A stretch of 64,000 bases of DNA from Actinostola sp. cb2023 (Eukaryota; Cnidaria; Anthozoa; Actiniaria; Actinostolidae): the NCBI GenBank assembly GCA_033675265.1, contig JAUJYZ010001162.1, forward strand, positions 304,001 through 368,000. Direction: 5' to 3'. The translations under genes and the position numbers were made by a program. Position 1 is the first letter of the stretch, and each line of letters starts with the position of its first letter. This document shows, in pieces, positions 411-39,700 of the stretch. Below the pieces are notes generated by a model. It searched no databases, had not been told where the DNA came from, and saw only the letters and a program-made list of their open reading frames with translations.

Positions 411-3400
411 TGGATCTGACACAAGTTCACACTCCATTGAATCATTTCGTCGCACACTATCCAATGCATATGATAAGAAAACTATATCTCTGGTAATAAC
501 AGGGCTTAACAAGTATTTCAGGTAAGCATAATCAGCCAGGTGAATTCATTGGGTGGAAACTATATCTCTGGTAATAACAGGGCTTAACAAGTATTTCAGG
601 TAAGCATAATCAGCCAGGTGAATTCATTGGGTGGAAACTATATCTCTGGTAATAACAGGGCTTAACAAGTATTTCAGGTAAGCATAATCAGCCAGGTGAA
701 TTCATTGGGTGGAAACTATCTCTCTGGTAATAACAGGGCTTAACAAGTATTTCAGGTAAGCATAATCAGCCAGGTGAATTCATTGGGTGGAAACTATATC
801 TCTGGTAATAACAGGGCTTAACAAGTATTTCAGGTAAACATAATCAGCCAGGTGAATTCATTGGGTGGAAACTATTTTGTGCTTCATCCTATCTCGGTGA
901 TTTATCCAAGCGCCTACAATAGAGTCGTTTTCGTATGAGTGGGAAACCTACGACACGGAGTTACGGTCACGGTACGAAATCGAAGACATTGTATTCAACC
1001 AATCACAGCGCGCAAAATCATTGCTCAACCAATCAGAATGCTTGGACACGGTACAGTTACTGCACGGCCGCACGAACCGTACCACTCATTATATTTTATT
1101 ATATTTTGTATGTAAACACGCCCCCCATTGAAATCAGCTTCATGTTGTTGGGGCTAGCGTGTTATTTTAAGATTAAATAAAGTATATTACCTTATTTTTT
1201 ACCTTTCTTACTCACACGACTCTATCGGTATAGGAACAACTGATTATTAACTATTGGTCTGCGAAATGCTCTGTTTCTAACCCATGGATTTCATGGGGGA
1301 GAGAAGGGTCACGGGGAGAGAAGGGTCGCGGGGAGAGAAGGGTCACGGGGAGAGAAGGGTCACGGGGAGAGAAGGGTCACGGGGATTGAAATCAGCTTCA
1401 TGGAGTTGGGGTCGCGGGGAGAGAAGGGTCGCGGGGAGAGAAGGGTCACGGGGAGAGAAGGGTCACGGGGAGAGAAGGGTCGCGGGGAGAGAAGGGTCGC
1501 GGGGAGAGAAGGGTCACGGGGAGAGAAGGGTCACGGGGAGAGAAGGGTCACGGGGAGAGAAGGGTCACGGGGAGAGAAGGGTCGCGGGGAGAGAAGGGTC
1601 GCGGGGACAGAAGGGTCGCGGGGACAGAAGGGTCGCGGGGAGAGAAGGGTCGCGGGGAGAGAAGGGTCGCGGGGAGAGAAGGGTCACGGAGAGAGAAGGG
1701 TCTCAGAAGCTCCCAATCTTTGCTCGCATTTCTCAGATGCAACACAACTTATTCTGAAGTAATTTGATGCATAAGTTTTTTTTTCGCTTTTGCTGCAGAG
1801 ACATCAAGTCCCAAAAAGCTCGCCAATATCGAAACGCAGTTCGTGGTGAAGCGGATGACATGGAAAACACGAAGTCACGGAATAAAGTGTCTTCTCCATC
1901 GTCGATAGTCTCTCAAGTCGACGTGGAAGAGTTTCTTGTCTTTGTTGAATTAACTACTGAACTCAAGCTCACTTTGTGCGAGACGATGCAAGACTTTGCT
2001 GATAATGTTAGCATGGTTACCAAAGCAATAGCCGAAGCACCATTCAAGTGAGTTATCTACCTTGTTCGACTTCCCTCTAATCCGTGTATCTCAGTGCAGC
2101 TTTAAATACCCGTAGAACGGAGCACTGATGGAGGGAGGGGCTAAAAGGGCACACCGTCCGCCCCCTGGTAGACCGCTTTTCGATGAAGCGTTGCATATCG
2201 ACCTTTACCTTTAGTCATGAGTTGACACTATTATTTTTCCCTTTGACGAAATTCATCGACAAAGTAAACTATAGATATATCAGTTGAGGGCGAGGACTTG
2301 CACCACATTCGTTTCTTCGTGACTTTACACGCTCAGTTCGACTTCCCTCTAAGCTGTGTCGCTGCGACGTAAAGCAGAGAATATACTATTTCTCATTCGC
2401 TTGACTGCCCTTCAAGCAAATAGACCAAGTTGAGGCGTTGAGTATGGTACAATGGATTGGAGCTACAACGTTAGCCTCAACTCGGTACTTTTGTTTGAAG
2501 GGCAGTCAAGCGAACGAGAAAATGGTATATTGATGGAAGTGGGAATTAGAGGGCGGACCATCGACCCTTTGAAGATCAGTGCTGGTCAATGCGGTAAACC
2601 GTTCTATTTTTTCTTCTATTTGGACCATCGACCCTTTGAAGATCAGTGCTGGTCAATGCGGTAAACCGTTCTATTTTTTCTTCTATTTGTATTTCAGGAG
2701 AAGTCAACCACAAGCGTTCAGCTTTTGTGTCGACTCCAGCAAATCTTCTGTCAAGGTAAGAAAAGCGTCCCAATATACAGTTACGTCACGGAGACAACTA
2801 CGTAACGCAACACTTCTACGGAATTTCCCCATCCTTTAATAATTAAACCATGACTTCTTGATACACAGCAGAACTGCTGCTACGTAACGCAACTACGTAA
2901 CGCAACACTCCTACGGAATTTCCCCATCGTTTAATTAAACCATGACATCTTGATACCCAGCAGAACTATTACGTAACGCAACTACGTAACGCAACACTCC
3001 TACGGAATTTCCCCATCCTTTAATACCATGACATCTTGATACCTAGCGTCACGTAGGTAGGAAACGTTACGCTACGAGTACACCGATACGTTGTGTTCCA
3101 TTCCTATCAGTAACGATGTGGAGATTGACGTTACGTTACGCTCACGCGTCTAAGACAAAGGATACATTGATAGCTGTCGCGTATATCTTGCTATTAATGA
3201 CATAATAATAATCGTTTTCATTCATCCATTCATTCATTCATCCATCCATTCATCTATCCATTCATTCTTCCATTCATTCATTTATTTACCATACAATTAC
3301 GCTCGTCCCGGGACCTCTATTTCAGGTAACCAAGGACGGTAATGGTCTGATAAAACTATGGCAGCAACAACTACAACAGTTTCACAATGTATCGTCCAAC

Positions 3401-4813
3401 ATGGCTGCTGCTATCGTTGCTGCTTATCCATCTCCACAACTACTAATAGAGGTAACTCATTTCCCATGACTACTAGTTCAAGGAAAGAAAGCCGAGGCAT
3501 TTATCGATTTATTTTTGTTTTCTGCTTGGACACCTTCCTAAGGCGGACTGTAAGTACTGGTGTGGCGTGTCAAAGGGTTTTTAAGTCAGTTCCTCATGTC
3601 TTTCATCGTCTTTATTTTTAAGGCTTACAAGGAATGTTCAAATAAGCACAGTGCCACTCTTTTACTCAAGGACATTTTGGTAAGTCCTCCTCTCCTCTCG
3701 TCTCTCCTCTCCTCTCCTCTCCTCTCTCTGTGTTCTGCTCTGTGTTCTAGGTACGTCTCTCCTCTCCTCCACTCCTGTCTGCTCTGTGTCCTCTCCTATA
3801 TCCACTATCCTCTGTTCTGTTCTAGGTACGTCTCTCTCCCTATGTCTCTCTGTGTCCTCTCCTATATCCTCTATGTCTGCTCTGTTCTCTACGTCTCTCC
3901 CTATCCACTATGTCTGCTCTGTCCTCTAGGTACTCTCTCCTCTCCACTCCTCTGTGTTCTCTCTCCACTATGTCTGCTCTGTGTTCTGTGTTCTATATCC
4001 ATACGTCTCTCTCCTATATCCACTATGTCTGCTCTGTGTCCTCTCCTATATCCACTATGTCTGTTCTGTGTTCTAGGTACGTCTCTCCTATATCCACTAT
4101 GTCTGCTCTGTGTCCTCTCCTATATCCACTATGTCTGTTCTGTGTTCTAGATACGTCTCTCCTATATCCACTATGTCTGCTCTGTGTTCTCTCCTATATC
4201 CACTATGTCTGCTCTGTGTTCTCTCCTATATCCACTATATGTCTGCTCTGTGTCCTCTCCTATATCCACTATGTCTGCTCTGTGTTCTCTCCTATTTCCA
4301 CTATGTCTGCTCTGTGTTCTAGGTACGTCTCTCCTATATCCACTATGTCTGCTCTGTGTTCTCTCCTATATCCACTATGTCTGCTCTGTGTTCTAGGTAC
4401 GTCTCTCCTATATCCACTATGTCTGCTCTGTGTCCTCTCCTATATCCACTATGTCTGCTCTGTGTTCTAGGTACGTCTCTCCTATATCCACTATGTCTGC
4501 TCTGTGTTCTAGGTACGTCTCTCCTATATCCACTATGTCTGCTCTGTGTTCTAGGTACGTCTCTCCTATATCCACTATGTCTGCTCTGTGTTCTAGGTAC
4601 GTCTCTCCTATATCCACTATGTCTGCTCTGTGTCCTCTCCTATATCCACTATGTCTGCTCTGTGTTCTCTCCTATATCCACTATGTCTGCTCTGTGTTCT
4701 AGGTACGTCGTGGTACAGGTGTGTTGGCCACTTCTCGACGCATTGGACCTGAACTATCGCGCCAAATTTATTTGTTATTTGATGCGACTGATGGAGAAAC
4801 ACTTTCCAAATAA
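411..4813 (+). CDS. EME1: EME1 (MUS81 endonuclease partner), 3' part, six exons
   Basis: Non-catalytic subunit of the MUS81-EME1 nuclease, which cuts branched DNA during recombination repair. Exons: 411-521, 1799-2047, 2698-2755, 3326-3451, 3623-3679 and 4703-4813; introns are GT-AG and the phases (2,2,0,0,0) join into about 236 open codons. Recognisable blocks in order are ISLVI...NKYF (exon 1), a degenerate ERCC4-fold segment with VEEFLVFVEL and TKAIAEAPFK (exon 2), FSFC (exon 3), a helix-hairpin-helix segment with VAAYPSPQLL (exon 4), AYKEC (exon 5), and VRRGTG plus SRRIGPELSRQIY before the stop (exon 6). These match my memory of the vertebrate EME1 C-terminus closely. The 5' exons lie outside the window. 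The acceptor of the first exon is uncertain (after 410 or after 393). Introns 1, 2 and 5 hold repeats that copy or abut the splice junctions. EME2 is the alternative name; many invertebrates have only one EME gene. Confidence 0.88.
481..870 (+). repeat. Five 78-bp tandem copies of an EME1 exon tail plus its splice donor
   Basis: Exact period of 78 bp, with unit starts at 481, 559, 637, 715 and 793. Each unit holds the last 41 nt of the first visible EME1 exon, the donor (TTTCAG then GTAAGC; GTAAAC in the last copy), and 37 nt of intron. Only the first copy is continuous with the exon; the other four lie in the intron. Reading through any donor meets an immediate in-frame TAA. Confidence 0.93.
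920..1224. mobile_element. MITE, TAGAGTCGTTTTCGTATGAG family, in EME1 intron
   Basis: Begins TAGAGTCGTTTTCGTATGAG and ends with a decayed inverted copy (CTCACACGACTCTA). Relatives in this window are at 28397-28568, 37052-37400 and, truncated, 46078-46128. Internal sequence shared by members includes CAACCAATCACAGCGCGC. The short open frame inside it is not a gene. Confidence 0.7.
1295..1703. repeat. 17-bp G-rich minisatellite in EME1 intron
   Basis: About 22 units of the 17-mer GAGAGAAGGGTCRCGGG. It is interrupted once at about 1384-1412 by a segment (TTGAAATCAGCTTCATG plus GTTGGGG) that also occurs in the neighbouring MITE at about 1130-1154. The long open frames on both strands arise because the unit has few stop codons; they look like coding sequence but are not. 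Confidence 0.92.
2056..2180. repeat. Degenerate relative of the 11.7-13.1 kb SINE tail
   Basis: Contains CGACTTCCCTCTAATCCGTG, CAGCTTTAAATACCCGTA, GAGCACTGATGGA and GGCACACCGTC. These match in order the SINE 3' part amplified at 11725-13066. The tRNA-like head is not present here. Confidence 0.6.
2555..2688. repeat. 67-bp tandem duplication just before an EME1 splice acceptor
   Basis: Two copies with period 67 (GGACCATCGACCC at 2555 and 2622), ending in the pyrimidine-rich TTCTATTTTTTCTTCTATTT. Only the second copy runs into the TTTCAG acceptor of the exon at 2698, so the intron has two polypyrimidine tracts in a row. Confidence 0.85.
2798..3050. repeat. Three imperfect tandem copies of about 80-90 bp in EME1 intron
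   Basis: Three copies of a block containing CTACGTAACGCAACACT, CTACGGAATTTCCCCATC and CCATGACATCTTGATAC, with small indels between copies. No coding content. Confidence 0.8.
3218..3278. repeat. (ATTC)n/(ATCC)n microsatellite
   Basis: Runs of CATTCATT and CATCCATC over about 60 bp in the intron before the exon at 3326. Confidence 0.85.
3680..4702 (+). repeat. Intronic minisatellite carrying repeated acceptor/donor junctions of the last EME1 exon
   Basis: It fills nearly the whole last intron. There are two interleaved unit types: a 32-mer (TCTCCTATATCCACTATGTC plus TGCTCTGTGTYC) and a 42-mer that adds the 10-mer TAGGTACGTC. The 42-mer ends TTCTAG then GTACGTC, matching the true acceptor and first 7 nt of the last exon (4703). 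Copies of AG|GTACGT fall at 3751, 3826, 4077, 4323, 4397, 4471, 4513, 4555 and 4597, with variants at 3930 and 4151. The last four are exactly 42 bp apart. The long open frames through it on both strands are repeat artefacts. Confidence 0.93.
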
Positions 4814-5239: not shown

Positions 5240-5782
5240 TTAAACTTTGACAGTTCGTTTTCTTACCCGTTTTCCCCTTATATGGTAATAGGCTGGTTGC
5301 GTCAAATCCACGAACGGTGGTTGCTGGGCAACACGCTTGCCTCTGATGTGATAGAACGCGGGCGCAGTAAGGTCTACGTAGGGTGGATATTCTCTTTTCC
5401 CCCTTATATGGTAGTAGGCTGGTTGCGTCAAATCCACGAACGGTGGTTGCTGGGCAACACGCTTGCCTCTGATGTGATAGAACGCGGGCGCAGTAAGGTC
5501 TACGTAGGGTGGATATTCTCTTTTCCCCCTTATATGGTAGTAGGCTGGTTGCGTCAAATCCACGAACGGTGGTTGCTGGGCAACACGCTTGCCTCTGATG
5601 TGATAGAACGCGGGCGCAGTAAGGTCTACGTAGGGTGGATATTCTCTTTTCCCCCTTATATGGTAGTAGGCTGGTTGCGTCAAATCCACGAACGGTGGTT
5701 GTTTTGCTTCTTTCTTTTCTTTAGTTGCTATGACGACGGCTACTAGCACAGCGAAGCTAAAGGCACACAAGGAGCATCTCAT
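5240..5782 (-). CDS. Neuropeptide precursor with seven HIR-amide-type peptides
   Basis: A secreted prepropeptide of 180 aa in one exon. The start is the ATG at 5782; the upstream in-frame TTG is not used. It opens with a hydrophobic signal peptide (MRCSLCAFSFAVLVAVVIA) and a short Lys/Glu spacer, followed by seven peptides, each ending HIRGKR. Four are QPPFVDLTQPAYYHIRG and three are EYPPYVDLTAPAFYHIRG, strictly alternating and ending on the first kind. Gly before Lys-Arg is the standard signal for dibasic cleavage and C-terminal amidation, so the predicted products end in HIR-amide; the first kind starts with Gln and could form pyroglutamate. Each pair is encoded by a 126-bp unit, tandemly repeated with almost no change. 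The ending resembles an anthozoan HIR-amide neuropeptide family I recall, not checked. It converges on EME1. The plus-strand frame through the same DNA is a shadow. Confidence 0.93.
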   Translation of the reverse strand: MRCSLCAFSFAVLVAVVIATKEKKEAKQPPFVDLTQPAYYHIRGKREYPPYVDLTAPAFYHIRGKRVAQQPPFVDLTQPAYYHIRGKREYPPYVDLTAPAFYHIRGKRVAQQPPFVDLTQPAYYHIRGKREYPPYVDLTAPAFYHIRGKRVAQQPPFVDLTQPAYYHIRGKRVRKRTVKV

Positions 5783-6169
5783 GTTGCCGCTGTGCAAAAT
5801 AAAGCATGTGATTTTAACCGAGTTAGCGTTCTAGGCAGTGAAGTACGTCAAAGAATGCATTAGTCGTCCAAGTACTTAGACGTGTATTTTATTGAGTGTA
5901 AATTGATTTTTATGGTATATTCAAAGTAATAAAGCAATGAGCAATGTTATGACTAAAGCCGAACAATAATCACAATCTTTCTATCGCGTACAGTTCGTCG
6001 CATAATTTCGAGTACTCTTGAAGAAAAGAAAATGTTCACTCAAAAACTGTATTCTCGTTTGTATTAATAATTTCTTCAAATTGATAACTACTTTGCTAAA
6101 TGCTCGTGTAGTTTCTTCTCGGCCCTGTAGACAAGTAGATCTATCTTTAAATCTGCCCTTGAGGACAAA

Positions 6170-29794: not shown

Positions 29795-32469
29795 GCCGGA
29801 CTAGAAACGGGTTGGGACTAGGACTGAGCGTAAGGCAAAGTGGGCTAGAAACGGGTCGGGACTAGGACTGATCGTAAGACAGAGCGGGCTAGAAACGGAT
29901 CGGGACTAGGACTGAGCGTAAGGCAAAGCGGGCTAGAAACGGGTCGGGAATAGGAATAAGCGTAGGATAGAGCGGGCTAGAAACGGGTTGGAATTAGGAC
30001 TGAGCGTAAGGCAAAGCGGGCTAGAAACGGGTTGGAATTAGGACTGAACATAGGGCAAAGCGGGCTAGAAACGGGTCGGGACTAGGACTAAGCGTAGGAC
30101 AGAGCGGGCTAGAAACGGGTTGGAATTAGGACTGAGCATAAGGCAAAGCGGGCTAGAAACGGGTCGGGACTAGGACTAAGCGTAGGATAGAGCGGGCTAG
30201 AAACGGGTTGGAATTAGGACTGAGCGTAAGGCAAAGCGGGCTAGAAACGGGTTGGAATTAGGACTGAGCGTTAGGCAAAGCGGGCTAGAAACGGGTGGGG
30301 ACTAGGACTGATCGTATAGGACAGAGCGGGCTAGAAACGGGTCGGGAATAGGAATAAGCGTAGGATAGAGCGGGCTAGAAACGGGTTGGAATTAGGACTG
30401 AGCGTAGGATAGAGCGGGCTAGAAACGGGTTGGAATTAGGACTGAGCGTAAGGCAAAGCGGGCTAGAAACGGGTTGGAATTAGGACTAAGCGTAGGACAG
30501 AGCGGGCTAGAAACGGATCGGGACTAGGACTGAGCGTAAGGCAAAGTGGGCTAGAAACGGGTCGGGACTAGGACTGATCGTAAGACAGAGCGGGCTAGAA
30601 ACGGATCGGGACTAGGACTGAGCGTAAGGCAAAGCGGGCTAGAAACGGGTCGGGAATAGGAATAAGCGTAGGATAGAGCGGGCTAGAAACGGGTTGGAAT
30701 TAGGACTGAGCGTAAGGCAAAGCGGGCTAGAAACGGGTTGGAATTAGGACTGAGCATAGGGCAAAGCGGGCTAGAAACGGGTCGGGACTAGGACTAAGCG
30801 TAGGACAGAGCGGGCTAGAAACGGGTCGGAATTAGGACTGAGCGTAAGGCAAAGCGGGCTAGAAACGGGTTGGAATTAGGACTGAACATAGGGCAAAGCG
30901 GGCTAGAAACGGGTCGGGAATAGGACTGTACTAAGCGTAGGACAGAGCGGACTAGAAACGGGTTGGAATTAGGACTGAGCGTAAGGCAAAGCGGGCTAGA
31001 AACGGGTCGGGAATAGGAATAAGCGTAGGATAGAGCGGGCTAGAAACGGGTTGGAATTAGGACTGAGCGTAAGGCAAAGCGGGCTAGAAACGGGTTGGAA
31101 TTAGGACTGAGCATAGGGCAAAGCGGGCTATAAACGGGTCGGGACTAGGACTAAGCGTAGAACAGAGCGGGCTAGAAACGGGTTGGAATTAGGACTGAGC
31201 GTAAGGCAAAGCGGGCTAGAAACGGGTTGGAATTAGGACTGAACATAGGGCAAAGCGGGCTAGAAACGGGTCGGGACTAGGACTAAGCGTAGGACAGAGC
31301 GGGCTAGAAACGGGTTGGAATTAGGACTGAGCGTAAGGCAAAGCGGGCTAGAAACGGGTTGGAATTAGGACTGAGCGTTAGGCAAAGCGGGCTAGAAACG
31401 GGTGGGGACTAGGACTGATCGTATAGGACAGAGCGGGCTAGAAACGGGTCGGGACTAGGACTGAGCGTAGGGCAAAGCGGGCTAGAAACGGGTTGGGACT
31501 AGGACTGAGCGTAGGGCAAAGCGGGCTAGAAACGGGTCGGGACTAAGGACTGATCGTATAGGACAGAGCGGGCTAGAAACGGGTCGGGACTAGGACTGAG
31601 CGTAGGGCAAAGCGGGCTAGAAACGGGTTGGGACTAGGACTGAGCGTAGGGCAAAGTGGTCTAGAAACGGGTCGGGACTAGGACTGATCGTAGCGGGCTA
31701 GAAACGGGTTGGGACTAGGACTGAGCGTAGGGCAAAGCGGGCTAGAAACGGGTCGGGACTAGGACTGAGCGTAGGGCAAAGCGGGCTAGAAACGGGTCGG
31801 GACTAGGACTGAGCGTAGGGCAAAGCGGGCTAGAAACGGGTCGGGACTAAGGACTGATCGTATAGGACAGAGCGGGCTAGAAACGGGTCGGGACTAGAAC
31901 TGAGCGTAGGGCAAAGCGGGCTAGAAACGGGTCGGGACTAAGGACTGATCGTATAGGACAGAGCGGGCTAGAAACGGGTCGGGACTAGGACTGAGCGTAG
32001 GGCAAAGCGGGCTAGCGGGTTGGGACTAGGGGCTAGAAACGGGTCGGGGAACTGAGCGTAGGGGACTGATCGGGTATAAGGACTGATCGTATAGGACAGA
32101 GCGGGCTAGAAACGGGTCGGGACTAGGACTGAGCGTAGGGCAAAGCGGGCTAGAAACGGGTTGGGACTAGGACTGAGCGTAGGGCAAAGTGGTCTAGAAA
32201 CGGGTCGGGACTAGGACTGATCGTAGGACAGAGCGGGCTAGAAACGGGTTGGGACTAAGGACTGATCGTATAGGACAGAGCGGGCTAGAAACGGGTCGGG
32301 ACTAGGACTGAGCGTAGGGCAAAGCGGGCTAGAAACGGGTTGGGACTAGGACTGAGCGTAGGGCAAAGTGGTCTAGAAACGGGTCGGGACTAGGACTGAT
32401 CGTAGGACAGAGCGGGCTAGAAACGGGTTGGGACCAGGACTGATCGTAGGGCAGAGCGGGCTAGAAACG
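29795..32469. repeat. Large 44-bp minisatellite, about 60 copies
   Basis: Units of 42-46 bp built on GGGCTAGAAACGGGTYGGGA, CTAGGACTGAGCGTAGGGCA and AAGC. Variant units (GGAATTAGGACTGAGCGTAA; GGACAGAGC) recur in the same order, giving a higher-order pattern. One last partial unit (about 32920-32946) is separated by an inserted element at 32469-32919. Confidence 0.95.
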
Positions 32470-36713: not shown

Positions 36714-39700
36714 TTAAGGATCGATTCTTGTGTTGTATCCTAGGCATACATGTTCACATTGCGCTGTGGACACAAAGTTGTTGACATTCCCACCACACCC
36801 ACTGTAGACAAACACCTCGCAATCCCCTGTTCTTGTATTGAAGAAGTATCGGGTCTGACTATCATAACAGTGTCCAACTTTCTTTGGTAAACGACAATCG
36901 TTGTTGATAGGCTGACGTACACCTGCAGTACAGGGGCCAACAATCGTACCTATAAAACATGTACTGCAAGATAACTTACTAGAGCAATTGTAGTATGTGG
37001 ATTAGAGTGTAACGGACTTTGAGATGAAGTCTATGTAAACGCAGCCAGTGTTAGAGTCGTTTTCGTATGAGTGGGAAACCTACGGCACGGAGTTCGGTTA
37101 CGGTACGGAATCGAAGACATCTATTCAACCAATCACAGCGCGCAAAATCATTGTCTCATTGCAAAATCGCCGCAGGACATGTACCGTCAGAGCCGTACAT
37201 CCCAAAATTCAAGGGGGAGGGGTACGTATATAACATCAAAAAATAAATAGAAATAGTACAGTTCTCAGTACTTTTTGGTGTCTTTTTCGCCTTGTTTGGG
37301 GGGAAACTGCCCCCCCCCCCCCCCACCCTCCCCCTGAGCTGTGTTCGGCCCTCAGACCGTACCGTAGCATCCTCCCACTCATGCCAAAAACGACTCTCTA
37401 CTACTTGTACAACTAAAGCCATCTATTCTTGTATGACAAGAGTTCTGAATTCTTACCAGCGTCACCGATGCACAATTGTTCACAATCTTGTTTGTGGATA
37501 AAGTTGTTAGCGTTGCCATGGCATCCACCATAACAAAACAGTTCACAGTACTTTGTGTATTGATTGAAGTAATATCGGGGAATATTTGCCACACCAGAAC
37601 CAACTTGTTTTGGTAAGCGACAGACTTCGCTGTTTGTCGTCGGTCGAACAGCTGTAATATATGAACATTATTCCTCATGTAAAACTACTTTAATGCGAAA
37701 CTTCGCCGAGAAGAGTTGAGCTTCGAGTGGGAATTCGAAGTTTTAACCGGCTGAGGAAGAAAGAGCGGGGAAATGAGGCGAGACGGGGAGACAGGCAAAA
37801 AGTAGGGACCACATTTTGTTTGCCTCATTCCCTCGCGGACACCTCCATCCCAAAGGACCTGGACGTTTCTTTCTCCTTTTATATAAACCTTCAATAAGCG
37901 GACACTTTAACCGCTTCGGTGGAGGCTAAATGGGATACCTCAAAAGGACCTCATTAATATAAAACAATAGAACGATGCAGTAACACAATAGATTGGTTCT
38001 ATTCTTTGGTTGGCTAAGGGCGGTTTGGGTTATGGAAACAAGTCCTTTACCTTACTCTTCAGGCTCCCAACGGTGGTTATGTTTCTAAGTGAACACTCCA
38101 TTGGTCACGTGGTTACACAGGGTTCCCATAACATGAATAGATGTAATACTTACTGACCGAGAGCCCGTTGGTCACGTGGTTACACAGGGTTCCCATCACA
38201 TGAATAGATGTAATACTTACTGATCGAGAGCCCGTTGGTCACGTGGTTACACAGGGTTCCCATCACATGAATAGATGTAATACTTACTGATCGAGAGCCC
38301 GTTGGTCACGTGGTTACACAGGGTTCCCATCACATGAATAGATGTAATACTTACTGATCGAGAGCCCGTTGGTCACGTGGTTACACAGGGTTCTCATAAC
38401 ATGAATAGATGTAATACTTACTGATCGAGAGCCCGTTGGTCACGTGGTTACACAGGGTTCTCATAACATGAATAGATGTAATACTTACTGACCGAGAGCC
38501 CGTTGGTCACGTGGTTACACAGGGTTCCCATAACATGAATAGATGTAATACTTACTGACCGAGAGCCCGTTGGTCACGTGGTTACACAGGGTTCCCATCA
38601 CATGAATAGATGTAATACTTACTGATCGAGAGCCCGTTGGTCACGTGGTTACACAGGGTTCTCATAACATGAATAGATGTAATACTTACTGACCGAGAGC
38701 CCGTTGGTCACGTGGTTACACAGGGTTCCCATCACATGAATAGATGTAATACTTACTGACCGAGAGCCCGTTGGTCACGTGGTTACACAGGGTTCCCATA
38801 ACATGAATAAATGTAATAATTACTGACTGAGAGTCCATTGGTCACGTGGTTACACAGGGTTCCCATTGATGTAATACTTACTGACATGTGGTTCATGATG
38901 AAGGCACAAATGTTCACAATGCTCTTTGGAGTTAAAGTTGTTAAAGTTGCCACCACATCCACCATAATAGAACTTATCACAGCTTCCTGTATTAATATTG
39001 AAATAGTATCGGAGGATATGTCCATGACACGGACCAACTTTCATAGGTAAATAGCAGATGGTTCTAGGATCGCTGCGAGCCTCTGCGGCAACCACACCTA
39101 AAAGTTAAATAACACTACTTGAACCTTGTGCACTGATTTGTGTATATTCCATGGTTTCTTGATTGAGAAAAGAAACTGATGTTGTTTATGCTATTAGCTG
39201 TCTATGTACGCTGGGACTCTAACCGGTCCATCTGAGTCCCGTGTATAAATAAAGTGATTATTGATCAGCAAATACTATAGAGTTTTACTTCTTTCGATTA
39301 GCCTGCGTGGCGGACGAAAGGGTGGGGATCGTGCATGCAAAACAGCCCCTGCTTCTTTACGAAACTCCGTCGAGAGAGAGTTGAAGTTCGGTCGACAAGT
39401 TGATCGGGCCGCGAGAGAATGAGGCGAGACGAAAAGACGAGAGGGGAGTGAGGCGAGAAGGGGAGACGTGCGCATGCGCGCGCCTCACTCCCCTCTCGTC
39501 TTCTCGTCTCATTCTCTCGCGGCCCGATCAACTTCTCTACCGTATTTCAACTCTTCTCGACGGAGTTTCGTAAAGAAGCAGGGGCTGTTTAGCAGTCTAC
39601 CGTCATGCAGTCCCCCTCCGATCCCCACTCTTTGGGACGCCACGCAGGCTACTTTCAATAGCCTGCTGTGCCTTAGGGTTGGTGACGTAGACGACTTTTA

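Follow-up and report, generated by a model that had tools for sequence, protein, structure and literature searches.

The first 4.8 kb of the analysed window (the whole stretch of 64,000 nt, positions 304001-368000) contained the 3' part of EME1. Six EME1 exons were placed on the forward strand of the window, one ending at 521 and the others at 1799-2047, 2698-2755, 3326-3451, 3623-3679, and 4703-4813, and another EME1 exon match was found ~8.3 kb before the window. The 199-residue protein obtained from the script-joined exons matched solved EME1 structures (PDB, best E 1.5e-43) and the Pfam family PF21292 (EME1-MUS81_C, E 9.5e-35), which identified the gene as EME1. The exon ending at 521 gave a weak match when searched alone (E 0.004 for P0004 and 0.14 for P0003) and ran in phase onto the next exon (..NKYF-R-DIK). 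Matches of the EME1 protein included three relatives (best 56% identity), birds, and a spider. When the 424-Mb genome was searched with EME1, matches were obtained at one locus only, by which a second EME1 copy, or another haplotype with a different repeat copy number, was rejected.

The last EME1 intron (3680-4702, 1023 nt, phase 0) is bounded by the penultimate exon (3623-3679, ..LLLKDIL|), which was placed by homology, and by the last exon (4703-4813), which encodes VRRGTGVLATSRRIGPELSRQIYLLFDATDGETLSK followed by a stop codon. The boundary was fixed by homology, with DIL|VRRG aligning to DIQVRRG of solved EME1. The last exon thus starts with the conserved VRR(G) motif, and VRR was present in all four relatives examined. 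The true donor was TTG|GTAAGT (3680-3685), the true acceptor was the AG at 4701-4702, and the opening 7 nt of the last exon (GTACGTC) lay inside a tandem repeat.

This repeat is a junction-copying minisatellite (3734-4709, +) composed mostly of 42-nt units that contain TAGGTACGTC and 32-nt units that lack it; the 42-nt array had a Tandem Repeats Finder score of 662. From position 4010 onward the units measured 42 nt (with the junction) or 32 nt, apart from one of 34 nt, and before 4010 they were irregular. The 32-nt unit equals the 42-nt unit minus exactly TAGGTACGTC, a loss that could have been promoted by the flanking TCT repeats. The 5' (donor-side) end of the array was the most diverged, and the units near the last exon were uniform, with four successive identical 42-nt units at 4436-4603.

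Past the donor's own AG, the intron contained 12 AG dinucleotides, comprising 11 decoys and the true acceptor, and all 12 occurred within TCTAG. This AG total is not unusually low for the composition of the intron (12 versus a shuffle mean of 16.4, P 0.13); the notable feature is that every AG past the donor is a copy of the junction, not how many there are. The first-pass annotation had reported nine units carrying TTCTAG|GTACGTC, identical to the true 3' splice site and the first bases of the last exon, and a sequence count bore this out: ten exact copies were present, namely nine decoys and the true site.

In these nine of the 11 decoys, the last intron bases and the seven exon bases GTACGTC were unchanged. 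The intact AG|GTACGT copies (all +) were found at 3749-3756 (the first decoy, 71 nt past the intron start), 3824-3831, 4075-4082, 4321-4328, 4395-4402 (where the 68 nt upstream, including the AG, are identical to those of the true site), 4469-4476, 4511-4518, 4553-4560, and 4595-4602 (the last decoy, 106 nt ahead of the intron end). The annotation had also taken every copy to be a candidate recursive site, with an acceptor directly followed by a donor, which holds for the intact decoys and fails for the other two: decoy 3929 (3928-3935, +) reads AG|GTACTC and has a damaged donor, and decoy 4150 (4149-4156, +) reads AG|ATACGT, an acceptor without a donor that is predicted to be a dead end whichever GT donors are allowed. 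Decoys 4396, 4470, 4512, 4554, and 4596 matched the true site over 36-68 nt upstream and 7 nt downstream. Beyond +7 the true site and the decoys differed, the former running into exon and the latter into pyrimidine-rich repeat.

The array shows two features of tandem duplication across an intron-exon boundary: its direct copies span the intron end and the exon start, and the donors were recruited from formerly exonic bases, GTACGTC in nine of the 11 decoys being the first seven bases of the exon. That the duplicated part is spliced out is expected from the reading frame and homology. When the genome was searched for an 84-nt double unit, 12 matches were returned, every one at the EME1 locus; the search skips simple repeats and very common words. 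The array has therefore most likely grown in place, and we regard repeated tandem duplication across this boundary as its almost certain origin, with slippage or unequal exchange as the presumable cause. The identical adjacent units and the diverged 5' end fit recent growth on the exon side. The first decoy would define an intron of 71 nt, which fits a short ancestral intron that was lengthened afterwards. Insertion of a dispersed satellite, a transposon, or an introner into the last intron would agree with the presence of other AG|GTA tandem arrays in the genome, but this origin is very improbable, as the double unit had no match in that search outside the EME1 locus, where an introner should have similar copies, and the array unit ends in the last exon's own bases. 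A scan of viral contigs for the array unit gave no matches. A coding repeat in the EME1 frame was also considered and rejected, since retention of the intron reaches a stop at 4148-4150.

The closest precedent for the last-intron array is a potato intron. PMC4974935 describes how it arose from a tandem duplication that spanned the border of an intron and an exon; exon bases supplied the donor, and RNA confirmed the intron. According to that account, the potato duplicate, like the EME1 array, holds the 3' end of the intron and the 5' start of the exon, so that branch site, tract, and AG were inherited and the GT donor came from former exon bases. In the potato case as described there, the copies number two and RNA supports a new intron bounded by exons, whereas the EME1 array, read from genomic DNA, has eleven extra junction copies, all within one lengthened intron. 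Among the best literature matches, which covered few subscription papers, the titles and abstract openings did not describe a minisatellite of copied splice junctions.

A second junction-copying minisatellite was found in EME1 at 479-875 (+), with a 78-nt unit in 5.1 copies. Each unit joins 43 nt from the 3' end of the exon that stops at 521 (..ISLVITGLNKYF) to the initial 35 nt of the next intron. The junction TTTCAG|GTAAGC was present in five copies, the fifth reading GTAAAC, with donors after 521 (the true one), 599, 677, 755, and 833; the later copies carry in-frame stops. This array is the mirror image of the one in the last intron, at a different junction that is also AG|GT. Here TATTTCAG|GTAAGC reads as an acceptor followed by a donor, so that in principle a second splice could repair the choice of a late donor.

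Both arrays resemble the Rogers model, in which an exon segment with AGGT is tandemly duplicated; the review PMC3443670 states that the model has been verified in vivo, and the Drosophila survey PMC2891723 also treats such duplications. In the model as reviewed, the duplicated AG|GT provides both donor and acceptor and the coding sequence is unchanged if the new intron is spliced. The AG of the model is exonic, whereas the last-intron array has its AG in the intron. A better fit to the model is the 479-875 array, with an exonic AG (..TATTTCAG) and an existing donor as its GT. The arrays were also compared with the ratcheting points, or zero-length exons, of recursive splicing, which PMC2773006 and PMC5126111 describe in large introns. 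As in those descriptions, an acceptor is directly followed by a donor and no bases would be left in the mRNA after both steps. In contrast, the EME1 intron is only ~1 kb long (1023 nt), far from the very long host introns of ratcheting points, and its sites are tandem copies. The last-intron site ttctag|gtacgt departs at two positions from the ratcheting-point consensus (y)nncag|gtaagt, and four of the five sites in the 479-875 array (atttcag|gtaagc) depart at one.

We next considered what splicing to a decoy would yield. For all 11 decoys, joining to exon 3623-3679 would give a truncated or out-of-frame product without the EME1 C-terminus. The annotation's claim that only the last acceptor keeps the frame thus stands in its outcome and not to the letter: the true site shares its phase with decoys 4150 and 4396 (552 and 306 nt from 4702), but both of these decoys reach a stop in a later unit. 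An intact decoy joined to exon 3623-3679 would give ...TTG|GTACGT, potentially a GT donor again, and to this extent the anatomy supports the annotation's idea of stepwise removal.

The strength of such donors was estimated from their pairing with U1, using an 11-base 5' end that begins five of the eight fetched U1 candidates, the other three being different or unreadable. The true donor paired at -9.1 kcal/mol, the decoys in place at -6.4, and the restored TTG|GTACGT at -4.9. Other EME1 donors gave -11.1 (521), -5.7 (2047), -9.5 (2755), and -6.6 (3451), so each of the five natural EME1 donors examined pairs more strongly with U1 than the restored donor does. Among the 107 GT sites of the intron, the decoy donors (-6.4) were the best U1 matches after the true donor. 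The Rfam cut-off for U1 was exceeded at sixteen places in the genome (42 candidates scored), and one of the fetched copies (L036-L043), L042, had an altered 5' end, ATACTTCACC.

Possible splicing paths were enumerated in a model in which the leftmost donor is always used and the minimum intron is 40 to 100 nt. Under this model the correct mRNA could be reached from ten of the 11 decoys if any GT is accepted, or from nine if GTACGT is required. When introns had to be 60 nt or longer, the paths ended only in the correct mRNA or in the trap at 4150, and in 3929 as well if GTACTC is not a donor; six of the 11 decoys could end only correctly. Four upstream decoys could end either correctly or in a trap, and 4596 also became a trap when the minimum intron exceeded 106 nt. 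When splicing was allowed in any order with a minimum of 60 nt, 8 (any GT) or 16 (GTACGT only) end products resulted, the correct one included, some of them with stranded 42-nt pieces. Three of the decoy-to-decoy intervals measure only 42 nt, which is probably too short for an intron. Given these traps and stranded products, rescue from a decoy would be possible but not guaranteed.

Minisatellites are common in this region, with arrays covering 17% of the window and 9% of the 100 kb upstream. Fourteen merged arrays of at least 120 nt were present in the window, one of which (29797-32469) had a 44-nt unit in ~60 copies. On the reverse strand, a motif scan found a cluster of at least 11 Kunitz-type inhibitor domains (10878-55389), and the three frames tested against Pfam were all confirmed. 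A Kunitz gene on this strand also has tandem copies of a donor, CA|GTAAGT (38101-38883, -), its exon end being placed from the frame and paralogues. The presumed true CA|GTAAGT was accompanied by 10 further exact copies, mostly 67 nt apart. Since this array lacks AG|GT, leftovers there would not be precisely removable.

The association of arrays with splice junctions was assessed on 25 inferred junctions, 10 from EME1 (donor 521 being entered as 522) and 15 from Kunitz exons picked by eye, mostly from the motif scan; three Kunitz exons (at 37413, 24208, and 10878) were omitted, as was 19163, one member of a near-identical pair. Two of the 25 junctions lay inside arrays versus 4.3 expected from circular shifts, or three of the 25 if the Kunitz donor 38882, which is 16 nt off the Tandem Repeats Finder bounds and was scored as outside, is counted. 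Five of the 25 were within 50 nt of a large array, where 4.3 were expected. Preferential birth of minisatellites at splice junctions was rejected on these counts.

Searches for similar arrays elsewhere pointed the same way. At least three YAG|GTRNG sites were found in 3 of 53 array loci (period of at least 20, 164 kb) versus 2 in the reversed control, no clear excess. Genome-wide, tandem TTNTAGGTA...TTNTAGGTA occurred 1474 times versus 1374 in the reversed control, which is little excess; in one matching array (C19), the edges, read by eye, were without an obvious coding frame. The strict tandem TTTCAGGTAAGT was absent from both the genome and its control, which says little because the pattern is unable to match the 479-875 array (GTAAGC). 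Nothing in the small TTNTAGGTA excess suggests that the ladder was selected for recursion, and, together with the lack of enrichment at junctions, it gives no sign that minisatellites are drawn to junctions. The passive duplication that the annotation had offered as its alternative is better supported as regards the origin of the array, and the AG|GT ladder is best regarded as a chance product that has persisted.

A need for Val-Arg in the protein at the junction (GTN CGN) likely explains why the last exon starts with GTACGT, and with these bases at the exon start any tandem copy of the junction would be an acceptor-donor module. The spliceosome is predicted to use the exon-adjacent acceptor either directly, helped by the real exon beside it, or following one or several removals at decoys. 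With the GT donor restored after joining to an intact decoy, a wrong choice would usually not be final. We give an even chance to the reading, drawn from the sequence, that the array expanded passively and is tolerated because use of a decoy likely restores a donor and can be re-spliced. Recursive rescue is a plausible reason for the tolerance of the array. Against efficient recursion stand the weak restored donors, the three 42-nt steps, and the one dead-end decoy.

Single-step, exon-defined splicing of a neutral array is nearly as likely, and we put it a little short of even. The true acceptor would then win by exon definition and the decoys would be ignored. The true site and the five decoys noted above are alike locally, but the sequence beyond +7 is exon at the one and pyrimidine-rich repeat at the others. 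The real exon sequence may make the single step win, in which case rescue would perhaps never be needed. The weakness of the restored donors, the absence of junction enrichment in arrays, and the small TTNTAGGTA excess over the control all agree with this explanation. However, identical acceptors closer to the donor usually compete, and silence of all 11 decoys would itself need an explanation. It is also conceivable, though improbable, that the decoys are used productively to lower EME1 through transcripts that end in the array without the VRRG C-terminus. All 11 decoy products are indeed truncated or frame-shifted, but the analysis gave no evidence of selection, and the array is confined to this locus and looks recent. 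In a terminal intron, moreover, the decay of such decoy transcripts is not guaranteed.

Returning to tolerance through re-splicing, a broader form of it would take in both arrays. It is possible, though rather doubtful, that EME1 is spliced through self-healing ladders, with acceptor-donor minisatellites at a 5' and a 3' junction. If so, splicing could start at almost any rung with the leftovers being removed later, and the copy number of the arrays could drift freely while the mRNA stayed unchanged. The last intron of EME1 represents a natural competition assay in which the true site and five decoys diverge only at a greater distance from the junction. Such an assay would reveal directly how one of several identical acceptors is chosen by the spliceosome, and whether an unstable tandem repeat can give rise to recursive splicing by accident. 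It would also suggest why AG|GT junctions can survive duplication, since splicing could remove the errors made there.

A reverse-strand reading frame (5240-5830, -) that lies tail to tail with EME1 had a signal-peptide-like start and, in frame, a coding repeat of 126 nt that yields ..PAYYHIRGKR and ..PAFYHIRGKR. It had no Pfam family and no homologue at E 0.001 among 4627 candidates, and from its sequence looks like a putative secreted precursor of amidated peptides, with GKR sites. A TMEM267/C5orf28-like protein was also recognized, with search matches that included a sea anemone.
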